Virus record (IMG/VR): IMGVR_UViG_3300045738_001357
Coordinates: 1 to 33,704 of that record
Source of the DNA: a virus
DNA length: 33,704 nucleotides
Reading direction: 5' to 3' (one strand)
Shown: in pieces, positions 21,985 to 33,704 of the stretch
Numbering within the stretch: position 1 is the stretch's first letter
Layout of the letters: each line of letters opens with the position of its first letter
Made by a program: the position numbers and the translations under genes
Notes under the pieces: generated by a model
What the model was told of the DNA's origin: nothing
Databases searched by the model: none
The model's input: the letters and a program-made list of their open reading frames with translations, nothing else

Positions 21985-22158
21985 TCACTCCTGCCGGTCG
22001 TCCGGTACGTAGTAGCCCCAGAGGCTACAGTTTTGGTAATGTGGGTGCTCATTGCCATCATCATCCGCCACGCAGGCGCCGCACTCGCCGCACTCGTCGC
22101 ACGGATACCCTTCAAGGTCGTCAGCGTAGCAGTCGCCTGGGTCATGGGCCACGATCAT
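21985..22158 (-). CDS. 57-residue acidic zinc-ribbon-like protein
   Basis: Starts in an ATGA overlap with the upstream coiled-coil gene and ends 4 bases before the next start, with the next ribosome site inside its last codons. It contains CDECGECGAC, further Cys and His residues (HPHYQNC), and many Asp/Glu. No longer frame contradicts it. Function unknown. Confidence 0.6.
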   Translation of the reverse strand: MIVAHDPGDCYADDLEGYPCDECGECGACVADDDGNEHPHYQNCSLWGYYVPDDRQE

Positions 22159-22847
22159 TCCGAGTCCTCCGTCGCTTCTGGTAGGGTGCTAACAGTCCGA
22201 GAGGCGTCATCGGATGACTTCCGGGTGCCTCCTGACGCGCTGGTTGTCCAGTCGCTCCCTCTCCTGTAGGCGGCCTGGGCGAGGGGCGCCGCAACGTAGG
22301 CCGTCTCTAGCTTGTAGGTGTGGAGCATCCTGGCGATCCCCTTGTCGAGCTCGTCCAGCAGCTCGTCAGCCGAGGCGCCGCTGTCCTGGCCGTCGACCTT
22401 GAACTTCGGTGTCGGGACACCCTTGACCGTGAACGTCACGCTGGCGCTGTATTGGATGGGGCGGTACTCGGCCCGCATCTGTTCCATGACATCCATGCGG
22501 TTTCTGAGAGCCGTGTGAGCAGCGAGTAACCTCCTTACTGTGTCGTCTTGGGTGGCGATGCGCTCTCCGAGATCCGAACGAGTATTAAGCGATCTCCCTA
22601 CCGTGCTGGCATACTCCTTTTCCAGGTCAGAGATGCGGTCACGGAGCTTGTCAAGAACACTATCCAGGGCATTGCGGTAGCTCTTCGCATCGTCTGCTTC
22701 GTTGTCTAGCTGCTCTTTCAGGGCTTCGATGCGCTCTTGGAGGTCGTCCATGTCTGTGCCCCATTTTCTCAGCGCGTCCTCTAGCTCCCTAGCCATTACC
22801 CCGCCCTGAGCGCGGGACATCAGTTCCTGATCCTTGTCTAGCGTCAT
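22155..22847 (-). CDS. coiled-coil protein
   Basis: A 230-residue protein with a long predicted coiled coil at about residues 15-130 (ELEDALRKWGTDMDDLQERIEALKEQLDNEADDAKS ... DKLRDRISDLEKEY). A beta segment follows (YSASVTFTVKGVPTPKFKVDG), and the C-terminus is serine-rich. AAAGGAGG sets the start at 22847. It may be a structural or chaperone-like early protein. No family recognised. Confidence 0.6.
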   Translation of the reverse strand: MTLDKDQELMSRAQGGVMARELEDALRKWGTDMDDLQERIEALKEQLDNEADDAKSYRNALDSVLDKLRDRISDLEKEYASTVGRSLNTRSDLGERIATQDDTVRRLLAAHTALRNRMDVMEQMRAEYRPIQYSASVTFTVKGVPTPKFKVDGQDSGASADELLDELDKGIARMLHTYKLETAYVAAPLAQAAYRRGSDWTTSASGGTRKSSDDASRTVSTLPEATEDSE

Positions 22848-22858
22848 GTCATCCTCCT

Positions 22859-23035
22859 TTACGTGCTTGGATACCAGGTGTAATGTAGGTGCTGTTCGTG
22901 GCCGTGGCACCGGCAGAGCTTCACGCCCTTGGTGCCGTCGATGTCGAAGTCGATCACCTCGACCTGCACCTCGGTGGGCTTATGCGCCAGCCGGACGGTG
23001 CCGTTGCGCACCACCAGGACGACGGGCTCAGTCAT
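22859..23035 (-). CDS. 58-residue strand-rich protein
   Basis: Opens MTEPVVLVVRNGTVRLA, continues VQVEVIDFDIDG and CRCHGHEQHLHYTWYPS. It resembles short phage proteins with a VxVxVxDFDxDG core and a metal-binding tail. Its start overlaps the upstream stop by ATGACTGA. The first 25 bases are repeated at 23374-23398, at the start of a remnant ORF. Confidence 0.6.
   Translation of the reverse strand: MTEPVVLVVRNGTVRLAHKPTEVQVEVIDFDIDGTKGVKLCRCHGHEQHLHYTWYPST
23011..23035. repeat. 25-base direct repeat, copy 1
   Basis: Matches 23374-23398 with one mismatch. Both copies contain a start codon followed by MTEPVVL on the - strand, set in an ATGACTGA stop/start overlap. Together they bracket the gene at 23028-23258. 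Confidence 0.85.
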
Positions 23036-23258
23036 TCCTCTTGCCCTTCGGTTTATACGTGAAGTCGTGGTCGACTTCGACTAGTTTGTAGAGGTGGCCA
23101 CGGAAGGCGTCCCCCTCGTCGTAGGTTCCTTCCTCGTGCATCAACTGGGCTGCGACGTCTGCTAGCTTCGGTTCTGTCCAGATATGGTGATCTGGCTCGT
23201 CCGGTTCGTGGTAGATGTACCCCTCGCCGTTGCTCAACACGTACAAGTCCTTGTCCAT
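23028..23258 (-). CDS. hypothetical protein behind a shared leader
   Basis: A 76-residue acidic protein (MDKDLYVLSNGEGYIYHEPDEPDHHIWTEPKLADVAAQLMHEEG is its character: aromatic strands, then helix). The start at 23258 follows GGAGGTGCGCACG, part of a repeated leader. It lies between two 25-base direct repeats, as if inserted. Function unknown. Confidence 0.62.
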   Translation of the reverse strand: MDKDLYVLSNGEGYIYHEPDEPDHHIWTEPKLADVAAQLMHEEGTYDEGDAFRGHLYKLVEVDHDFTYKPKGKRND

Positions 23259-23300
23259 CGTGCGCACCTCCCGTGCCGGTAGTGTCAACGCGGCGTTACG
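23259..23300 (-). repeat. repeated gene leader, copy D
   Basis: On the - strand CGCCGCGTTGACAC, then 14 bases, then GGAGGTGCGCACG directly before the ATG. Shares CCGCGTTGACAC with the leader at 26090 and a 23-base identical block across the start with the leader at 25411. Confidence 0.75.
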
Positions 23301-25034: not shown

Positions 25035-25410
25035 ACGCCACGGCTTCGTACGAGATGGGGCGGTCGAAGTAGGTGTTGAGCATCTGGGCTTCGCCGCCCC
25101 GTTCGTGGACCTGGACGTAGCAGTTCCACGACGCCAGTGGGTGCCCCGACTCCCGGTCGGTCGACTGCGAGTAGACCAGCTGGAGTCGTTCGACGTGATT
25201 CTCACGGTCTAGCAGCGGCTTTAGGGTAGCTAGAACGGAGTCGATAAACTCCCGAGTGCCCGTCAGGCGGATACCATCTTGTGCGTAGGTGCTCCCTTCG
25301 TGCTTGTAAGGTACTTTGCGCATCGTCTGGGCTGGCGTGCGCGTGTTCCCCGGTAGGGCGCGCCAGTGCCCAAGTGCTTCGGCCTTAGTCAATCGTTTCG
25401 CCTTGTCCAT
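25033..25410 (-). CDS. conserved hypothetical protein (HERGGEAQM type)
   Basis: A 125-residue protein ending with NCYVQVHERGGEAQMLNTYF, preceded by DGIRLTGTREFIDSVLATLKPLLDREN and RLQLVYSQSTDRESG. I recognise this as a conserved family of phages and integrative elements without known function. The start at 25410 follows GGAGGTGCGCACG; the ATG five codons earlier lies inside the leader repeat itself. Confidence 0.68.
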   Translation of the reverse strand: MDKAKRLTKAEALGHWRALPGNTRTPAQTMRKVPYKHEGSTYAQDGIRLTGTREFIDSVLATLKPLLDRENHVERLQLVYSQSTDRESGHPLASWNCYVQVHERGGEAQMLNTYFDRPISYEAVA

Positions 25411-25437
25411 CGTGCGCACCTCCATGCGTTTGACGCT
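25411..25437 (-). repeat. repeated gene leader, copy C
   Basis: On the - strand GCGTCAAACGCATGGAGGTG, then CGCACG and the ATG. Together with the start of the gene (25401-25423) it is identical over 23 bases to 23249-23271. Confidence 0.75.
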
Positions 25438-25485: not shown

Positions 25486-25722
25486 CTAGACGGCGGCGGC
25501 CTCTAGCGCCCAGGGGGCCTTATCTGGCTTGTACCAGACGACGTAGGTGTCATCGTCCATTAGGCCGATAGATGGGTCCGTCTGTGGCGCTTCGGCCTTT
25601 AGGCGGCCGCATACCTTGACGGCCATTGGGTAGTAGAGGACGTTTACCCAGACGTGATAGCCTTGCGTGCGGCACCAGGCGATAAGTTCGCCCTTTGTTG
25701 CGGATGGCTTCAGCGCTTGCAT
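25486..25722 (-). CDS. hypothetical protein behind shared leader
   Basis: A 78-residue protein with a helical start (ATKGELIAWCRTQGYHVWVNV), then strands (MAVKVCGRLKAE; DDTYVVWYKPDKAPW). GGAGGTGCGCAC lies directly before the ATG at 25722. Function unknown. A 75-base gap with no gene follows up to the next leader. Confidence 0.6.
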   Translation of the reverse strand: MQALKPSATKGELIAWCRTQGYHVWVNVLYYPMAVKVCGRLKAEAPQTDPSIGLMDDDTYVVWYKPDKAPWALEAAAV

Positions 25723-25754
25723 GTGCGCACCTCCAGGTTTGATTGTGTTGACGC
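25723..25754 (-). repeat. repeated gene leader, copy B
   Basis: On the - strand GCGTCAACACAATCAAACCT, then GGAGGTGCGCAC before the ATG. Shares ACACAATCA with copies A and E and GGAGGTGCGCA with A, C and D. Confidence 0.75.
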
Positions 25755-26089
25755 TATCCCTCGCAAACGGCGCAAGCCTCGGAGTCGTCCTCGTGGATGT
25801 GCCAGAGGCCCCAGTCACCGAAGCCGTCCGAGTAGCCGAAGTAGTACCCTTCGGGTGCTAGCGCCTGCATGTACTCTTCAGCTTCGTCGGTGTCCCATGT
25901 GTACTCTTCGCCGTCGTCTGGCCCAGTGATTCGACCATTACCGTATCCGTGGGCTGCGGCTATGGCTTGGATGTGTTCGCCCATGTAGACGCCATAGACG
26001 CCGTCCACCCACGGTCCCATCTCGGATTCGTCTACTGCGTGCTTGGCGTCCGTCATCGTGCCTGTGCCGTCCGTCCGTATCGTGACCAT
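25754..26089 (-). CDS. acidic hypothetical protein behind shared leader
   Basis: A 111-residue acidic protein. The N-terminal part is helical (GVYMGEHIQAIAAAHGYGNG). The C-terminal block PEGYYFGYSDGFGDWGLWHI resembles conserved GYYFGxxxGDGxxxGWW proteins of phages and plasmids, and the tail ends ACAVC. GGAGGTGCGCAG precedes the ATG. Function unknown. Confidence 0.62.
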   Translation of the reverse strand: MVTIRTDGTGTMTDAKHAVDESEMGPWVDGVYGVYMGEHIQAIAAAHGYGNGRITGPDDGEEYTWDTDEAEEYMQALAPEGYYFGYSDGFGDWGLWHIHEDDSEACAVCEG

Positions 26090-26126
26090 CTGCGCACCTC
26101 CATGCGTGATTGTGTCAACGCGGCGC
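26090..26126 (-). repeat. repeated gene leader, copy A
   Basis: On the - strand GCGCCGCGTTGACACAATCA, then CGCATGGAGGTGCGCAG and the ATG. The most complete copy, carrying both the upstream GTTGACACAATCA block and the GGAGGTGCGCA block. Confidence 0.78.
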
Positions 26127-28230: not shown

Positions 28231-28476
28231 ATGAACATCGAGGACATCGAGGCTGTGGAGTATGAGAGGGGCGACATCGTGAGTGAGCCCTGGGGGGTTG
28301 AGGTGGAGTGCCGAACGACAGTAAATGCTGTTCGCTGTTACGTTGCCGACCCAAGGTGCAGGACCGAGCACTATGAAGAGCACCTGTGCACGTATGATGA
28401 GGAGATCCACCCTGAGCTCTGGCACTTTGAGACAAGGGACGAAGGAGATGGGATCACCAGCATTGCCTGCCCCTAA
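28231..28476 (+). CDS. small acidic Cys/His protein between terminase genes
   Basis: An 81-residue protein (MNIEDIEAVEYERGDIVSEPWG...) with Cys and His residues spread through it (CRTTVNAVRCY; CRTEHYEEHLC; HPELWHF). The start is uncertain: an ATG at 28153 gives 107 residues with an unlikely N-terminus, and neither has a good ribosome site. It overlaps the large terminase start by 29 bases. Function unknown. Confidence 0.5.
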   Translation: MNIEDIEAVEYERGDIVSEPWGVEVECRTTVNAVRCYVADPRCRTEHYEEHLCTYDEEIHPELWHFETRDEGDGITSIACP

Positions 28477-29974
28477 CGCCGTACCTCCTACCCTGACCCC
28501 TGCATCTTCTCCAGAACCCTCTGCCGCCGAGAAGGCGATTAAGGGGAGGGCGGAGTTTGCCCTCTGCGGCCAGTCATTTCTCAACCTCCTCAAGGTGATC
28601 TTCATCATGGAGCCGCCGCCCCTGCGCGGTAAGGTCCGTTTTGAGGACTGGGCCTATCTCATTGAGGTCGCCCGAGCCTTTACTGAGCATCGCCAGCTTG
28701 TGGTCCTGAAGGCGCGGCAGGTCGGGTTCTCCTGGCTCGTCGCGGCCTATGTCGTGTGGTGGCTGCGCTGGCGGGAGGGGTCGGTCGTTCTGTTGCTGTC
28801 CAAGGGGCAGGTTGAGGCTTATGCCCTGTTGCAGAAGGTCAAGTTCATCTACCGTAATCTGCCCCAAGAGTGGCAGCTTCCGCTGACAACCGACTCCCGG
28901 TCCGAGATCCAGATAGGCGCCAACTTCTCCAAGGTGATCGCGTTGCCCTCCACGGAGGACGCAGGCCGTGGGGAGACCTCCTCGTTGGTTGTGCAGGACG
29001 AAGGCGACTTTCACGATCATCTGGAGCAGAACCTCATTGCGGTCGAGCCCACCGTCTCGGCCGGCGGTCAGATCATCGTTGGCTCCACGTCGAATAAGAA
29101 GGTAATGATAAGCCCGTTCAAGGAGATATACCGCAACGCTCCTCAGAACGGCTGGCATCGTATCTTCATCCCCTGGCACGCTCGGCCTGGTCGGGATCAG
29201 GCGTGGTATGAGCGCACTCGCGCCTCCATCCCCGCCACCACCGATATGACCCCCGACCTCTATATGGAGCAGGAGTTCCCCGGGTCGGACTCCGAAGCCC
29301 TCGCGCCGTCTGCCGCTCTATCTGCCTTTACCCAGGCGTATTTGCGCGACATGGAACTCGATTGCCGAGAGCCCGTGAGGACCAATGGCCCTGTCAATAT
29401 CTACCGAGAGTGGCGCGTCGGGGGGCGCTATATGTGTGGCACCGACACTTCTCACGGGGTTGGCGCCGACTTCTCCGCGTCGGTGCTGATCGAGGCCCAC
29501 ACGGGCTATGTCGTGGCCGACATCCTGGATAACCTGCTGTCTCCCGATATGCTGGCGTGGCACACAATGCAGATGCTCGCCGAGTTCCGAAACCCCATCT
29601 GGGCCATTGAGGACAACGAGTGGGGCGAGATCACGATCAAGGCGGCCCGGGCGGAGCGCTATCCCAGGCTATATCACCGGCAGGACCGGCGCGGCGGTCG
29701 GTATGTCGGGTGGCACGCCGACGAGCGCTCTCGGTACAGCCTCTGGGCTGGCGTTATGGAGGCGATCCACTCCCGCGCCCTCACGGTGCCCAACCGCCGT
29801 GGTCTGGATCAGTTCAACTCCCTCATACGGAACCCGAAGAAGAATGGTAGGATAGAGGCCATGACAGGCGCCCACGACGACTACCCCACTGCCGTTGGGA
29901 TCGCGCTACAGGCCCGAGAGCAGGTACACAGCTCTGGCGGGAGAGCCACACCGGCCCTCCCAGCGAGGTGGTAG
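28448..29974 (+). CDS. terL: terminase large subunit
   Basis: A 508-residue packaging motor. ATPase part: the degenerate Walker A LKARQVGFSW (87-96), then SVVLLLSKGQ and Walker B LVVQDEGDF (180-188) with its catalytic Glu. RNase H-like nuclease part: D333 in CGTDTSHG, E388/D389 in WAIEDNEWG, and D477/D478 in GAHDDYPTA. The start is the ATG at 28448, placed after AAGGG; a frame reaching further upstream overlaps the previous gene and has no domain. It translocates DNA through the portal encoded three genes later. Confidence 0.9.
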   Translation: MGSPALPAPNAVPPTLTPASSPEPSAAEKAIKGRAEFALCGQSFLNLLKVIFIMEPPPLRGKVRFEDWAYLIEVARAFTEHRQLVVLKARQVGFSWLVAAYVVWWLRWREGSVVLLLSKGQVEAYALLQKVKFIYRNLPQEWQLPLTTDSRSEIQIGANFSKVIALPSTEDAGRGETSSLVVQDEGDFHDHLEQNLIAVEPTVSAGGQIIVGSTSNKKVMISPFKEIYRNAPQNGWHRIFIPWHARPGRDQAWYERTRASIPATTDMTPDLYMEQEFPGSDSEALAPSAALSAFTQAYLRDMELDCREPVRTNGPVNIYREWRVGGRYMCGTDTSHGVGADFSASVLIEAHTGYVVADILDNLLSPDMLAWHTMQMLAEFRNPIWAIEDNEWGEITIKAARAERYPRLYHRQDRRGGRYVGWHADERSRYSLWAGVMEAIHSRALTVPNRRGLDQFNSLIRNPKKNGRIEAMTGAHDDYPTAVGIALQAREQVHSSGGRATPALPARW

Positions 29975-29978
29975 CGCA

Positions 29979-30170
29979 ATGCTTGATACTGTCGGCCCTC
30001 ACTTCAATGCCCTCGGAGCGCTCCTTGAGGCAGACCATAAGGGCGAGCGATACAGCGAGTGGCCCCGCCCATCGTGGTGGAAAAGGATTTTGCGCATCCG
30101 GCGTCCCAAGCCCAACTACGATGGAACCCCCATATACTGGTCGAGGAACATCGAGATAGACAATGCCTGA
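29979..30170 (+). CDS. 63-residue hypothetical protein
   Basis: Starts four bases after the large terminase with GAGGTGG upstream. Sequence: helical N-terminus (NALGALLEADHKGERYSEW), then a basic segment (WWKRILRIRRPKPNYDG). Its final codons contain the start of the next gene (ATGCCTGA overlap). Unknown function. Confidence 0.6.
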   Translation: MLDTVGPHFNALGALLEADHKGERYSEWPRPSWWKRILRIRRPKPNYDGTPIYWSRNIEIDNA

Positions 30171-30432
30171 CCACAAGGCGGAGCATGCGTGCCAGGTCTT
30201 CTGCAAAGACCGGACCCACCTCTACACTGACGAGGCGACCCAGATTACCTGGTGTATCTCGACTGGTCATGGATGGTGCTGGGGTTGTTTCTCCGTGCCA
30301 TCTGATGGCAAAGACCCGAACCCCCAGGTGCCCCACATGATAGAGGACTTCCTGAGCAAGAGAGGAGACCCGGTAGAGGCGTCGGTCTATATGCACCCAC
30401 CCTTTCCGGCGAAAGAGAGCTCTATTGCCTGA
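30163..30432 (+). CDS. small cysteine-rich protein, apparently inserted
   Basis: An 89-residue protein with Cys at residues 10, 14, 31, 39 and 42 and histidines nearby (ACQVFCKDRTHLYTD ... GHGWCWGCF). Both its start and the start of the portal gene read MPDHK and share the 14-base repeat TGCCTGACCACAAG. It therefore looks like a gene placed into an ancestral overlap between the 63-residue gene and the portal. Function unknown. Confidence 0.58.
   Translation: MPDHKAEHACQVFCKDRTHLYTDEATQITWCISTGHGWCWGCFSVPSDGKDPNPQVPHMIEDFLSKRGDPVEASVYMHPPFPAKESSIA
30164..30177 (+). repeat. 14-base direct repeat, copy 1
   Basis: TGCCTGACCACAAG, identical to 30426-30439. It spans the stop of one gene and the start of the next at both places. 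Confidence 0.9.
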
Positions 30433-32173
30433 CCACAAGAAGCGGCCCACCGAGCAGGACCTGACCGAGGCTGACGACTACCTTCAGGGCGTCTGGAACA
30501 AGGCCCATGCAGAGTGGGGGGATCTCGATAACTACTACCACCGGACCTTCCCCCTCTGGCCCGCCGCCGTCCAGGACCGGGAGACATATCGCCCGTCCAC
30601 GGCAACCAATATCATCGACCACGCCTCTAATGTCCAATTGGCTTTCCATCCACGCATTCGCCGAGAGCCTGTAGGCGACTCCGTGGCGCATAAGGAGGCG
30701 GCAGACCGCCTGGAGGTCGGCCTAAGCGCCGTGCTGGAAGATTGCGCTATCCACGACACTTCCCTCACGTGGAAGCAGGCTGGGCGGCACCTCATCCACT
30801 ACGGCTATACCAATATCGAAGGCCCGACCCTGAGCTATGAGGGCCAGCCCGTCCTGAAAGACCTGGAAGACGGCGAGTCCGACGATGACTACTCTGAGCG
30901 GAAGACAATCTACGGCGCCCAGACCCGAGACTGGAACCCAGTGCGGATAAGGGCCACTCACCCGTCTCAAGTCCTTATGGACCCGCTGGAGAAGCAGCCG
31001 TCCCTGGCGATCAAACACGAGACCTTCATGGTGGGCCGTCTCCACGAGCTCTCCCTGACCAAGAAGCGCCGGCTTCGCCAGTATGGTCATGAGCTCAACC
31101 TGACCGGTCGGGGCCAGTACGACCCTGTTGATGTGGTCCACTGGTGGACCCCTTACTGGCACGCCGTCATGACCGACGACCAAAAGCAGATGCTCTGGGT
31201 CGAGAAAAATGCGGCCCGGTTCGTCCCTTTCTCTCATGCCTTTGCCGGCTTTGGCATTGTGCCCTCTGGAAAGGAGTTCGATCCGGTCTACCTGGCCGTC
31301 GGGCTTCTGAGCCCCATTCGGGACAGCTTGAAGGTACAGGCCCAGGCCGCGTCTGCGAAAGTCACGTTGCTGATGCGGGCGGCCTACACCAACCTTGGGA
31401 CCAATAAGGACCCGTTTGAGCTGGCCAGGCAGATGGCGAACGAGGGGATCGTGGTGGGGGATGATGGCGACTACTGGCTCATGCCTACGCCGGCGATGCA
31501 GGGCTGGATGATGGAGGTGGGCCGGGAGCAGGCGCAGGACATTGAGCAGGGCAGCTATCCCAAGCCGCTGGGCGGCTACCGGGAGCCCGGCGTGACCACC
31601 GTTGGGCAGCAGGCGATCCTGAGCAATGCGGGCAACCGGACATTCGCCGGTCCCACTCGCCAAATGGAGCACATTGCCACCGTGACGACATCCCGCGTTC
31701 TGCGGCTCGTAGAGCTGCTGGAGGAGCCCATCGGGGTCGCGGGCCGAATGGTCAAGCCTGCTGATATATATCACACCCACGCGATTCGTGTCACATTCGA
31801 GAACCTCGACCCCGCCATGCAGCTCCAGCAACGCGAGCTAGGCATTCGGGAGTTCCAGCTCGAGCTCAAGTCCGACGAGACCTACTGGGAACAGGATGCG
31901 CGGCTGGAGAATATCTCCCAGGAGAGGGAGCGACTGGACAACCAGCGCGTCAGGAGGCACCCGGAGGTCATCCGACTCAGGGCTCTTGAGGCGGCCCGGC
32001 GCCTCGACGTAGACCCCGACGCCCTCGATGCCTCAATGAGCGAGGATGAGGAGACAGCCCAGCGGGACGGTAGACGTAACGGCGAATCGGGTAGCCCCAT
32101 GGGTCCAGAGTCCGCTGTGCGAGATCTGATGCAGCCACTCACCGACCAGGTGGCCAAGCCAGGGAGGCTATAG
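30425..32173 (+). CDS. portal protein
   Basis: A 582-residue protein in the portal position after the large terminase. Features fit podovirus-type portals: helical N-terminus with DYLQGVWNKAHAEWGDLDNYY, the crown/wing region with RIRATHPSQVLMDP and DPVDVVHWWTPYW, the long stem helix region VGLLSPIRDSLKVQAQAASAKVTLLM, and a charged C-terminal helical barrel region (IREFQLELKSDETYWEQDARLENISQERERLD) with a disordered tail. The start is TTG in an overlap with the previous stop; the ancestral start was probably ATG (see repeat). It forms the dodecameric DNA channel. Confidence 0.8.
   Translation: MPDHKKRPTEQDLTEADDYLQGVWNKAHAEWGDLDNYYHRTFPLWPAAVQDRETYRPSTATNIIDHASNVQLAFHPRIRREPVGDSVAHKEAADRLEVGLSAVLEDCAIHDTSLTWKQAGRHLIHYGYTNIEGPTLSYEGQPVLKDLEDGESDDDYSERKTIYGAQTRDWNPVRIRATHPSQVLMDPLEKQPSLAIKHETFMVGRLHELSLTKKRRLRQYGHELNLTGRGQYDPVDVVHWWTPYWHAVMTDDQKQMLWVEKNAARFVPFSHAFAGFGIVPSGKEFDPVYLAVGLLSPIRDSLKVQAQAASAKVTLLMRAAYTNLGTNKDPFELARQMANEGIVVGDDGDYWLMPTPAMQGWMMEVGREQAQDIEQGSYPKPLGGYREPGVTTVGQQAILSNAGNRTFAGPTRQMEHIATVTTSRVLRLVELLEEPIGVAGRMVKPADIYHTHAIRVTFENLDPAMQLQQRELGIREFQLELKSDETYWEQDARLENISQERERLDNQRVRRHPEVIRLRALEAARRLDVDPDALDASMSEDEETAQRDGRRNGESGSPMGPESAVRDLMQPLTDQVAKPGRL
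30426..30439 (+). repeat. 14-base direct repeat, copy 2
   Basis: Second copy of TGCCTGACCACAAG, at the start of the portal gene. Confidence 0.9.
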
Positions 32174-32175
32174 AC

Positions 32176-32619
32176 GTGACAAAAGAGAAGCCGGGCTACT
32201 TATACTGGCCCGAGTCTATGGAGTGCGGCGACTTGCCCTGGGAGGCTAGCGAGGTTGCCCTTGAATTACTCGCGGCCCTCCGAGGGGCTGGCCGCCCTTC
32301 CATCGGGCTAGCAAAGTGGTTCTGGCGAGTCAAAGTAGCTGCCCCAGGTTGCAGCTTCGATGATCGCTACCGTTGTGCAGCATGGCTATCGGCCTGGGAA
32401 CGGATTGGGGGCCGACCTATCGAAGGGGTCAGAGGGATCGAATGGTATCTCGCGTTTGCCCCCTGGCGCTCTGAAGAGGGTTCCGCAGAATATGAGTGCG
32501 CCCGTGAGGACACAGAACAAGGGTTGATTGAAAAGTGGCCCGAGTTCGAGGGTGTCCCGCCATTACCCCCGCCAGAAATCCCAGTTCCGCCCGGGAAAAG
32601 ACAGACCGTTCCTGTGTAG
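32176..32619 (+). CDS. YWPESM-GDLPWEAS protein, copy 1
   Basis: A 147-residue protein starting with GTG two bases after the portal stop (GGGAGG upstream). Its core is YWPESMECGDLPWEAS (10-25), then RPSIGLAKWFWRVKVAAPG, DRYRCAAWLSAWE and RGIEWYLAFAPWR. The C-terminus is proline-rich. It is clearly related to the gene at 32823. The family seems familiar from other environmental phages but no function is known to me. Position suggests a head or DNA-packaging accessory role. Confidence 0.62.
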   Translation: MTKEKPGYLYWPESMECGDLPWEASEVALELLAALRGAGRPSIGLAKWFWRVKVAAPGCSFDDRYRCAAWLSAWERIGGRPIEGVRGIEWYLAFAPWRSEEGSAEYECAREDTEQGLIEKWPEFEGVPPLPPPEIPVPPGKRQTVPV

Positions 32620-32631
32620 AGAGGGACCAAG

Positions 32632-32814
32632 ATGCCACTGAGCCAGCCTGAGCAGACAGTGCAGAACATCGTGGACGAGATACTGGAGCTCCGTAAGCGG
32701 CGGCCCCGGGCGGCGCCCGCCACTGCGGTTCCCGGCTCCCGACGCCGAGTTGACCCGCCGATGGCCGATCTGCTTCGCCGCCACAATGTCAGGCTCACTG
32801 ATATAGGGAGATAG
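32632..32814 (+). CDS. 60-residue hypothetical protein
   Basis: A small protein with a good GAGAGGGACC site. A short helix (QTVQNIVDEILELRKRR) is followed by an arginine/proline-rich linker and a second helix (MADLLRRHNVRLTDIGR). Its last codons are part of the GATATAGGGAGATAG repeat. Unknown function. Confidence 0.6.
   Translation: MPLSQPEQTVQNIVDEILELRKRRPRAAPATAVPGSRRRVDPPMADLLRRHNVRLTDIGR
32800..32814 (+). repeat. 15-base direct repeat, copy 1
   Basis: GATATAGGGAGATAG, forming the end and stop codon of the 60-residue gene. Matches 33291-33305 with one mismatch. Confidence 0.8.
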
Positions 32815-32822
32815 ATTCTGCT

Positions 32823-33284
32823 ATGCAGCCATCGATGATAACAATTCTGGAGAAGGCGGAGAAGAAGGTTGACGACCATAGGAAGCAAATAGCTGGGAAG
32901 GTTCCGTCTGCACGAACAGTTAGTCGGATTATGAAAGAGTTTGACCCCTCCCCGGAGGAAGAGAAAGCGCAGTACCGTCACTTCTACTGGCCAGAGTCCA
33001 TGGAGCGTGGTGACTTGCCCTGGGAAGCTAGTGCGGCTGGCCTGGAAATACTCGCTAGTTTGGGACATGCAAGGTGGGCAAGCGTGGGTCGTGGTCTCCC
33101 GGAGTCTGCCCGCCCCTCCATCCGGCTGGTAAAGTGGCTTTGGCGCATCACATTAGTTGCGCCTGGTAGCGGATTTACTGAGCGCTACCGTTGCGCCGTA
33201 CTCTTTTCAGATTGGGAAGGCGAAGGGGATAGGCCGTTGAGTGACGTTAGGGCACTTGAACTACAGTTTGCTCGTGGCTGGTAA
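32823..33284 (+). CDS. YWPESM-GDLPWEAS protein, copy 2
   Basis: A 153-residue paralogue of the gene at 32176. Shared blocks: YWPESMERGDLPWEAS (55-70), RPSIRLVKWLWRITLVAPG, ERYRCAVLFSDWE and VRALE. It has an extra ~50-residue helical N-terminus (ITILEKAEKKVDDHRKQIAGK) and a 14-residue insert before RPSI, and lacks the proline-rich tail. The ribosome site is poor, so the exact start is uncertain. It sits between two 15-base direct repeats. Confidence 0.6.
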   Translation: MQPSMITILEKAEKKVDDHRKQIAGKVPSARTVSRIMKEFDPSPEEEKAQYRHFYWPESMERGDLPWEASAAGLEILASLGHARWASVGRGLPESARPSIRLVKWLWRITLVAPGSGFTERYRCAVLFSDWEGEGDRPLSDVRALELQFARGW

Positions 33285-33290
33285 CTCCTC

Positions 33291-33305
33291 GATATAGGAA
33301 GATAG
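33291..33305 (+). repeat. 15-base direct repeat, copy 2
   Basis: GATATAGGAAGATAG, here serving as the ribosome-site region of the gene starting at 33307. Confidence 0.8.
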
Positions 33306-33306
33306 C

Positions 33307-33704
33307 GTGGACCCAGTAGAACTTGACCGTTTTCTTCAGTGGCTGAACGCCCTCATCGGCGCCCGCGCTCCGGCCGCTTCGAAGCTGGAGATTAGCGAGA
33401 TCCTCGGTCGGGAGGGACAGAGCCTCGCGCTACGAGCGGATCAGAAGAAGGCTCTCCCTGGGCGGCTGCTCTACGACCTGGACGACGCCAAGCGGATTGC
33501 GCGCGAGATTGAGTCTGAGGCTCGTCAGCGCATCTCGGCTGCAGGTCAGGCGATCCCCGAGACGGTTGAAGGCATACGCATCTCGGCCACAGGCCAAGCG
33601 TTCCCCGAGGGGATTGAAGGCATACCCGACTCTGACCCCTTTGTCCTGATTAACTTCATCCTGAACGATGTGCTGGAAGCTGATGGCCGGTTTAGCCCAC
33701 AGGG
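33307..33704 (+). CDS. hypothetical protein running off the window end (partial)
   Basis: A GTG-started frame of 132 codons open to the last base. Helical N-terminus (VELDRFLQWLNALIGARAPAASKLEISEILG; KKALPGRLLYDLDDAKRIAREIESEARQ), then an internal repeat of 16 residues, then DPFVLINFILNDVLEADG. Joined to the first bases of the window it would read Gly-Gln-stop, giving 134 residues. AGGAAG precedes the start. Function unknown; it lies just before the scaffold side of the head genes if circular. Confidence 0.62.
   Translation, partial: MDPVELDRFLQWLNALIGARAPAASKLEISEILGREGQSLALRADQKKALPGRLLYDLDDAKRIAREIESEARQRISAAGQAIPETVEGIRISATGQAFPEGIEGIPDSDPFVLINFILNDVLEADGRFSPQ
33529..33624 (+). repeat. 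48-base tandem repeat inside a gene
   Basis: Two adjacent 48-base units (33529-33576 and 33577-33624) encode RISAAGQAIPETVEGI and RISATGQAFPEGIEGI. They differ mostly at third positions, with four or five amino-acid changes, so the duplication is not very recent. Confidence 0.85.

Follow-up and report, generated by a model that had tools for sequence, protein, structure and literature searches.

It has long been asked how phages acquire genes within tightly packed operons, where genes overlap, and yet leave the neighboring genes intact. Illegitimate recombination followed by selection is the explanation usually given, and few preserved joints are available for examination. The question is raised by an entire virus record of 33,704 bases (the window), in which the packaging genes lie at the end and a 14-nt sequence found at the start of a small gene, ORF89, recurs at the start of the portal gene immediately downstream. 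Was ORF89 inserted at this position and, if so, how were its neighbors spared?

A direct repeat at the starts of ORF89 and the portal gene

The packaging genes include a small terminase (phrog_51, E 1.6e-14) and a large terminase, followed by ORF63, ORF89 and the portal gene (Table 1). The 582-aa product of the last of these has no sequence match in PHROGs, Pfam or the PDB. However, the first 32 PDB matches of its predicted model (mean pLDDT 61) are all phage portals (best E 8.7e-9), and portals are also among the best viral matches of this model; judged by predicted fold, the protein encoded downstream of ORF89 is a portal. No start codon other than its TTG was found in the open frame from the upstream stop to a point 30 nt inside the match, and in the alignment this TTG coincides with the starts of relatives. 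The portals of these relatives align from residue 1 with a consensus start of MPD, which identifies MPDHK as portal sequence by descent. Elsewhere in the portal gene, a 57-nt patch (31919-31975) recurs in inverted orientation at 22210-22266 with 98% identity, close to where a minus-strand ORF of 251 codons (22155-22910) ends, and in a different frame; judging by this patch, the genome does seem to undergo short copy-and-paste events. A tandem 48-nt repeat (83%) is located at 33529-33624, inside the large gene found at the window's end.

Table 1. Positions of genes, repeat copies and boxes in the window
Feature	Position	Strand	Remarks
Large terminase gene	28325..29974 (start approximate)	+	phrog_2, E 3.1e-20
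ORF63, 63 codons	29979..30170	+	Absent from L104; TGA stop within left repeat copy
ORF89, putative inserted gene, 89 codons, Cys/His-rich	30163..30432	+	No match at the terminase-portal junction of relatives
Left 14-nt repeat copy	30164..30177	+	Probable ancestral portal start region, now ORF89 start
Putative foreign insert, 248 nt between copies	30178..30425	+	Last base is the T of the portal TTG
Right 14-nt repeat copy	30426..30439	+	Provides ORF89 TGA and present portal start
Portal gene, 582 codons, TTG start	30425..32173	+	Aligns with 14 relatives from residue 1; portal fold match
ORF147	32176-32619		ORF153 paralogue on the other side of ORF60; absent from L104
ORF60	32632..32814	+	63% identical to L104 5789-5968; directly behind portal in L104
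Left copy of second junction repeat, GATATAGGGAGATAG	32800..32814	+	End of ORF60 (DIGR, stop)
ORF153, putative second inserted gene	32823..33284	+	Absent from L104; paralogue of ORF147
Right copy of second junction repeat, GATATAGGAAGATAG	33291..33305	+	1 base from GTG (33307) of next large gene
GGAGGTGCGCA boxes	23256-23271, 25408-25423, 25720-25734, 26087-26101	minus	Directly 5' of ATG

The original prediction placed a 14-base repeat at 30164 and 30426, and both copies of TGCCTGACCACAAG are indeed present there, identical and 262 nt apart; the whole 33,704-nt window contains no third site when up to two mismatches are allowed (0.31 chance matches expected). The copies fall exactly at the starts of ORF89 and the portal gene. 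Each also spans a stop/start overlap, as had been claimed: on the left, the 8-nt overlap ATGCCTGA between the ORF63 stop and the ORF89 ATG, and on the right, the 8-nt overlap TTGCCTGA between the ORF89 stop and the portal TTG. The left copy translates as MPDHK and the right copy literally as LPDHK, which becomes the predicted MPDHK by initiation with M. The portal start reads TGCCNRACCAYAARAARCG, and all reading frames remain open across both joints. When 22 hand-picked starts in the window were compared (231 pairs), the ORF89/portal pair was a clear outlier, with 14 of the first 15 nt identical against 11/15 for the next-best pair and a mean of 5.9. A different repeated sequence, the box GGAGGTGCGCA, lies directly before the ATG of four minus-strand genes, where none is expected; two of these genes share 23 identical nt extending into the coding sequence, and the box was not found in the other loci compared, the window itself (L002) apart.

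The codon usage of ORF89 is barely coding-like, at 0.02 bits per codon versus 0.26-0.32 for the terminase and portal genes, and one of its antisense frames scores slightly higher (0.04). ORF89 matches no PHROGs family and, like ORF153 (see below), no Pfam family, and its predicted structure is uninformative (mean pLDDT 38); that it encodes a small zinc-binding protein is a guess. Single-protein and two-sequence searches confirmed no ORF89 relative. An insensitive pattern search returned 69 matches, none of them confirmed, and also missed the best match, a tentative one in contig L019, to a segment of an ORF of 234 aa that lies upstream of the terminase. This match runs from residue 8, just past the five codons that ORF89 shares with the portal gene, and its score was equaled or exceeded by 2 of 300 shuffles. 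A diverged duplicate of a neighboring gene was considered as the source of ORF89 and rejected, there being nothing alike past the five shared codons. ORF63 has no match in the loci compared or in named phages; its origin as an older duplication was likewise rejected, for it has CAATGC and TGA in common with the ORF89 start, yet matches it at 7 of the first 15 nt.

The corresponding region in relatives

Among viral contigs, relatives of the terminase-portal family are numerous. A terminase protein search (query trimmed at 28514, which is not a start codon) gave 31 loci, the terminase alignment comprised the best 80 of 220 matches and the portal alignment the best 80 of 162. In all, 158 loci yielded 130 contigs once those on the same contig were merged, and 123 of these were scored; the other seven (L008, L024, L025, L033, L053, L085 and L099) had a terminase or portal without a match at E 1e-5 or without a usable start. 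Portal relatives were found neither by exact peptides nor by tblastn in 50,697 named phage records, and no relative of the family was confirmed in cellular genome contigs. The gap between terminase and portal is at most 50 nt in 114 of the 123 scored contigs, including 8 in which the genes overlap, and larger in nine: L003 and L004 (160 nt), L151 (192), L113 (229), L109 (250), L034 (324), L059 (436), L100 (581) and L120 (1631). ORF89 is present at this junction in none of the 123, and tblastn found no match to it there in any locus.

The closest relative among the matches listed is contig L104, whose portal is 72% identical (in the alignment of the best 80 of 162) and which pairs with the window with a local support of 100 in a FastTree tree. 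The original prediction had proposed a search for relatives without ORF89, and L104 is such a relative: its terminase stop is followed by 32 nt containing the ribosome-binding site GGAGGAAG and then directly by a portal ATG. The L104 portal begins ATGCCCAACCATAAGAAGCGGCCC (MPNHKKRP; ATG CCC AAC CAT AAG AAG CGG CCC) and that of the window TTGCCTGACCACAAGAAGCGGCCC (TTG CCT GAC CAC AAG AAG CGG CCC). Over the first 15 nt, ATGCCCAACCATAAG in L104 and ATGCCTGACCACAAG in the window are identical at 12 positions (MPNHK versus MPDHK), and AAGCGGCCC follows both the right copy in the window and its counterpart in L104. The two copies of TGCCTGACCACAAG agree fully with one another, and with L104 at all but 3 of the 14 positions. 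The left copy is preceded by A, which is also the first base of the presumed ancestral ATG, and the right copy by T, with which the putative insert ends. Relative to the empty site, the left copy thus retains the upstream flank and the right copy the downstream one, the pattern that insertion with a 14-nt duplication predicts. The empty site, together with the exact repeat, supports the original proposal of a small gene inserted by junction duplication; far from being carried by all relatives, ORF89 is at the junction in none of those scored, and the MPNHK of L104 resembles MPDHK.

A further part of that proposal is that removal of ORF89 would join ORF63 directly to the portal gene; L104 lacks ORF63 as well, together with ORF147 and ORF153. 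At least two window genes between terminase and portal are therefore missing in L104, and the exact repeat is found at ORF89 only. Parsimony favors a gain in the window lineage over an earlier gain followed by precise loss in L104; with one close relative known, this polarity is not proven.

The portal start had also been regarded as weakened by the insertion. Shine-Dalgarno pairing is moderate at the ORF89 ATG (-5.9 kcal/mol) and amounts to -4.1 kcal/mol at the portal TTG, compared with -9.5 kcal/mol at the portal ATG of L104; only 1 of the 16 window starts compared pairs more weakly than that of the portal. The TTG taken alone is not a scar, since 23 of the 123 scored relatives start their portal with TTG (99 with ATG and 1 with GTG), 20 of the 23 with a terminase-portal gap of at most 50 nt. 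From the sequence, it seems likely that ribosomes finishing ORF89 reinitiate across the 8-nt overlap to translate the portal. At the other end of this gene group, the 3' end of the large terminase gene, AGGTGGTAG, doubles as the ribosome-binding site of ORF63 (pairing -11.0 kcal/mol).

A second joint of this kind occurs approximately 2.4 kb from the first. In L104, ORF60 is directly followed by the next large gene, and a single sequence, GACATAGGTAGATAG, forms the end of ORF60, 1 base from the ATG of that gene. In the window, this sequence is present on either side of ORF153, as GATATAGGGAGATAG and GATATAGGAAGATAG, which are the same at 14 of 15 nt and each differ from the L104 copy at 2 positions. 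The doubled piece is in this case the end of the upstream gene, containing the ribosome-binding site of the downstream gene. ORF153 and ORF147 are 55% identical where aligned, and no duplication is visible at the ORF147 junctions. One homologue was found, in contig L163; that contig has no match to the nine other window proteins compared, which fits a gene that moves. The possibility that ORF153 is a diverged duplicate of the gene following it was set aside, as the 25-residue pairwise match (E 0.03) was not trusted.

Comparable insertions can be sought elsewhere in the family. The terminase gene of L023 is preceded by a zinc-ribbon-like ORF of 83 aa, whose Pfam matches all fall below cut-off; this ORF begins with the leader GACGGAGTAACGAAGT and ATG GTT AAT ATC GAT, two changes from the terminase start of L022 (GACGGAGTAACGAAGT ATG GTT GAT ATT GAT). 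The terminase of L023 has a changed start, ATG GCT ATT GAT CTA GCT, after a second copy of AAGGGGTTTT, and the insert was not found in the other loci searched. This arrangement matches that of ORF89, with a foreign body past codon five, the old start captured and the neighbor restarted. In L100, an acetyltransferase-like insert and the portal both begin ATGGCTGATGA, a weaker case, MAD being a common portal start in the family. GNAT acetyltransferase-like genes are inserted beside the terminase in two further lineages (L100 2823-3389 and L028 845-1306). A Mom-like DNA modification gene (phrog_1384, E 1.5e-36) lies between terminase and portal in L059 (5350-5790); L125 and L060 are without it, and the flanking DNA is 99% identical on both sides.

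A scan of the loci for clean insertions, with three window events added by hand (two of them chosen for their repeats), gave 24 distinct groups. With the window excluded, a junction similarity score of at least 9 was reached in 4 of 21 groups, whereas pairing the left junction of one event with the right junction of another gave such scores at a rate of 0.0091 (p 3.6e-5; all three window events are excluded from this value, while their junction windows stay in the swapped-pair null). One of the four, L087/L125, is probably a loss in L125, the gene being present in 17 loci (some on one contig), and the L028 match may or may not lie at a gene junction. Outside the window, L023 is thus a firm gain with duplication and L100 is one less surely. 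Most insertion groups in the family display no duplication above chance: the inserts of L059, L050, L094, L096 and L034 gave no convincing duplication, and L127/L142 scored 8, a value reached by 3% of swapped junctions. The duplication signature is recurrent, not universal.

Competing explanations and known systems

The main rival to an insertion that itself made the repeat is recombination at a gene boundary. An ORF89 cassette would have come from a phage already carrying a copy of the portal start and been joined within the shared 14 nt; the duplication would then be older than the insertion and inherited from the donor. A published model attributes mosaic joints to short conserved boundary sequences (PMC3029335, PMC3233612), one of two such models stated in PMC3233612, and the 29-bp repeat case in phage LRRHood is so read by its authors in the account given in PMC3029335. 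Nevertheless, no donor was found, the portal-start pattern matching only the contig of L104 among viral contigs, and no ORF89 relative was confirmed, one of the searches being insensitive. Moreover, the 14-nt and 15-nt repeats differ, and one shared element does not account for both. Boundary recombination is accordingly possible but doubtful. ORF89 resembles the boundary-sequence cases of those papers in having a short shared sequence precisely at the edge between genes, next to a gene that is variably present; unlike them, the shared bases here are the neighbor's own coding sequence and vary between sites, and no second phage was found to have this boundary, apart from L104 with its single copy.

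An old gene recently lost is unlikely. On this account, ORF89 and its repeat were present in the common ancestor of the window and L104, and recombination between the copies removed the gene from L104 and restored a single ATG start. Precise loss does seem to happen in the family, as the L087 gene is missing in L125 beside a repeated start. However, this history needs a gain and a loss rather than one gain, no other listed relative has ORF89 at this position, and loss between the copies would not remove ORF63, ORF147 and ORF153, all missing in L104. The origin of the repeat would, in addition, still need a duplicating insertion.

Direct repeats flanking an insert are the classic mark of insertion at a staggered cut, and such repeats are present on both sides of ORF89. 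A transposase or homing-type element generating a target-site duplication is nonetheless very improbable: terminal inverted repeats are not above chance at either insert, the two inserts are unrelated in sequence and without the family matches sought (Pfam for both, PHROGs for ORF89), and the two repeats differ in length as well as sequence. Still less probable is a start element selected for its function, with no insertion history, of the type of the start-associated sequences in cluster K mycobacteriophages. The window does have such an element elsewhere, in GGAGGTGCGCA, but the 14 nt extend from within the start codon into the bases beyond it instead of occupying the ribosome-binding site, there are two copies only, with the other starts among the 22 compared unlike them, and the portal copy matches the portals of relatives as coding sequence by descent. 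Chance or an assembly artefact is scarcely credible, for although the record is a metagenomic assembly assessed without raw reads, the outlying pair of copies is in register with start codons and overlapping stops, frames are open across the joints, and a second, different junction repeat flanks ORF153.

Insertion with duplication of the junction has relatives among described systems. Genes 43-46 of LRRHood are an insert between 29-bp direct repeats whose sequence is single in relatives (PMC3029335); repeat-flanked phage insertions are thus already known, and ORF89 is a variant of them. The common features are inserted genes between direct repeats, single in relatives, at a gene end, with no element of their own reported, and both ORF89 and ORF153 conform in being flanked by direct repeats that are single copy in L104. 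In LRRHood, though, four genes form a single 1.35-kb block and the repeat at gene ends measures 29 bp, while the window has single small genes, repeats of 14-15 nt and two events; in addition, the ORF89 repeat consists of the neighbor's start and first codons, so that the newcomer begins with the neighbor's codons. Morons, which typically carry their own promoter and terminator (PMC3029335), are similar as extra genes between genes that are adjacent in a relative, here L104 (where ORF63 is missing too), but ORF89 overlaps both neighbors by 8 nt, leaving such signals no room outside the genes. The cluster K start-associated sequences, a few bases upstream of many start codons (PMC3203893), are also repeated at gene starts; the ORF89/portal repeat, by contrast, is present twice, each copy starting within the start codon itself, and the minus-strand box GGAGGTGCGCA fits that description much better. 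The mycobacteriophage mobile elements (MPME; approximately 0.44 kb, with inverted terminal repeats and a 6-bp addition; PMC3029335) are likewise very small insertions in phage genomes, but neither inverted terminal repeats nor a 6-bp addition was seen here. Among titles and abstract openings, a sample with most subscription journals outside it, an inserted gene that captures its neighbor's start codon is not described.

A proposed route for gene gain

Insertion of ORF89 is well supported, and 248 nt of foreign DNA probably entered the portal start and left a copy of the 14-nt junction on each side. The basis for this reading is the repeats and their position, the empty site of L104, the ORF153 case and the L023 parallel. 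The point of entry would lie between portal codons five and six, in the lineage of this phage, and the ancestral empty site is predicted to be ATGCCTGACCACAAGAAGCGG. The left copy would retain the old ATG, any leader preceding it and the five codons MPDHK, now serving as the start of ORF89, and the right copy, with the terminal T of the insert, would supply both the ORF89 TGA stop and the new portal TTG. The portal, otherwise intact, would probably be translated by termination-reinitiation across the 8-nt overlap. The favored route to the joint is illegitimate joining or template switching that stepped back some 10-20 nt, followed by selection for events sparing both neighbors. The terminase-portal region has almost no intergenic space, and thus an insertion would survive only with the shared signals doubled, the newcomer keeping the old start or stop signals. 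We infer the molecular route and the coupled translation, as we would any function of ORF89.

It is tentatively suggested that start capture of this type may serve gene-dense phages in general as a means of acquiring genes. DNA would enter a few codons inside a gene and the junction would be copied back; the newcomer would take over the old leader and start codon, with some five inherited codons forming a chimeric N-terminus, while the gene entered would restart from the copy. In a mirrored form, the end of the upstream gene would be copied, as at ORF153. The window preserves an unmutated joint as well as a second one; the sister lineage has the empty site, and another lineage offers a parallel. 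Existing genome collections can be searched for the signature, namely adjacent genes with 10-20 nt in common where they start or end. If start capture does operate, the newcomer would be translated at once while the neighbor's protein is kept, and short repeats at the starts of adjacent genes would mark recent gains across phages.
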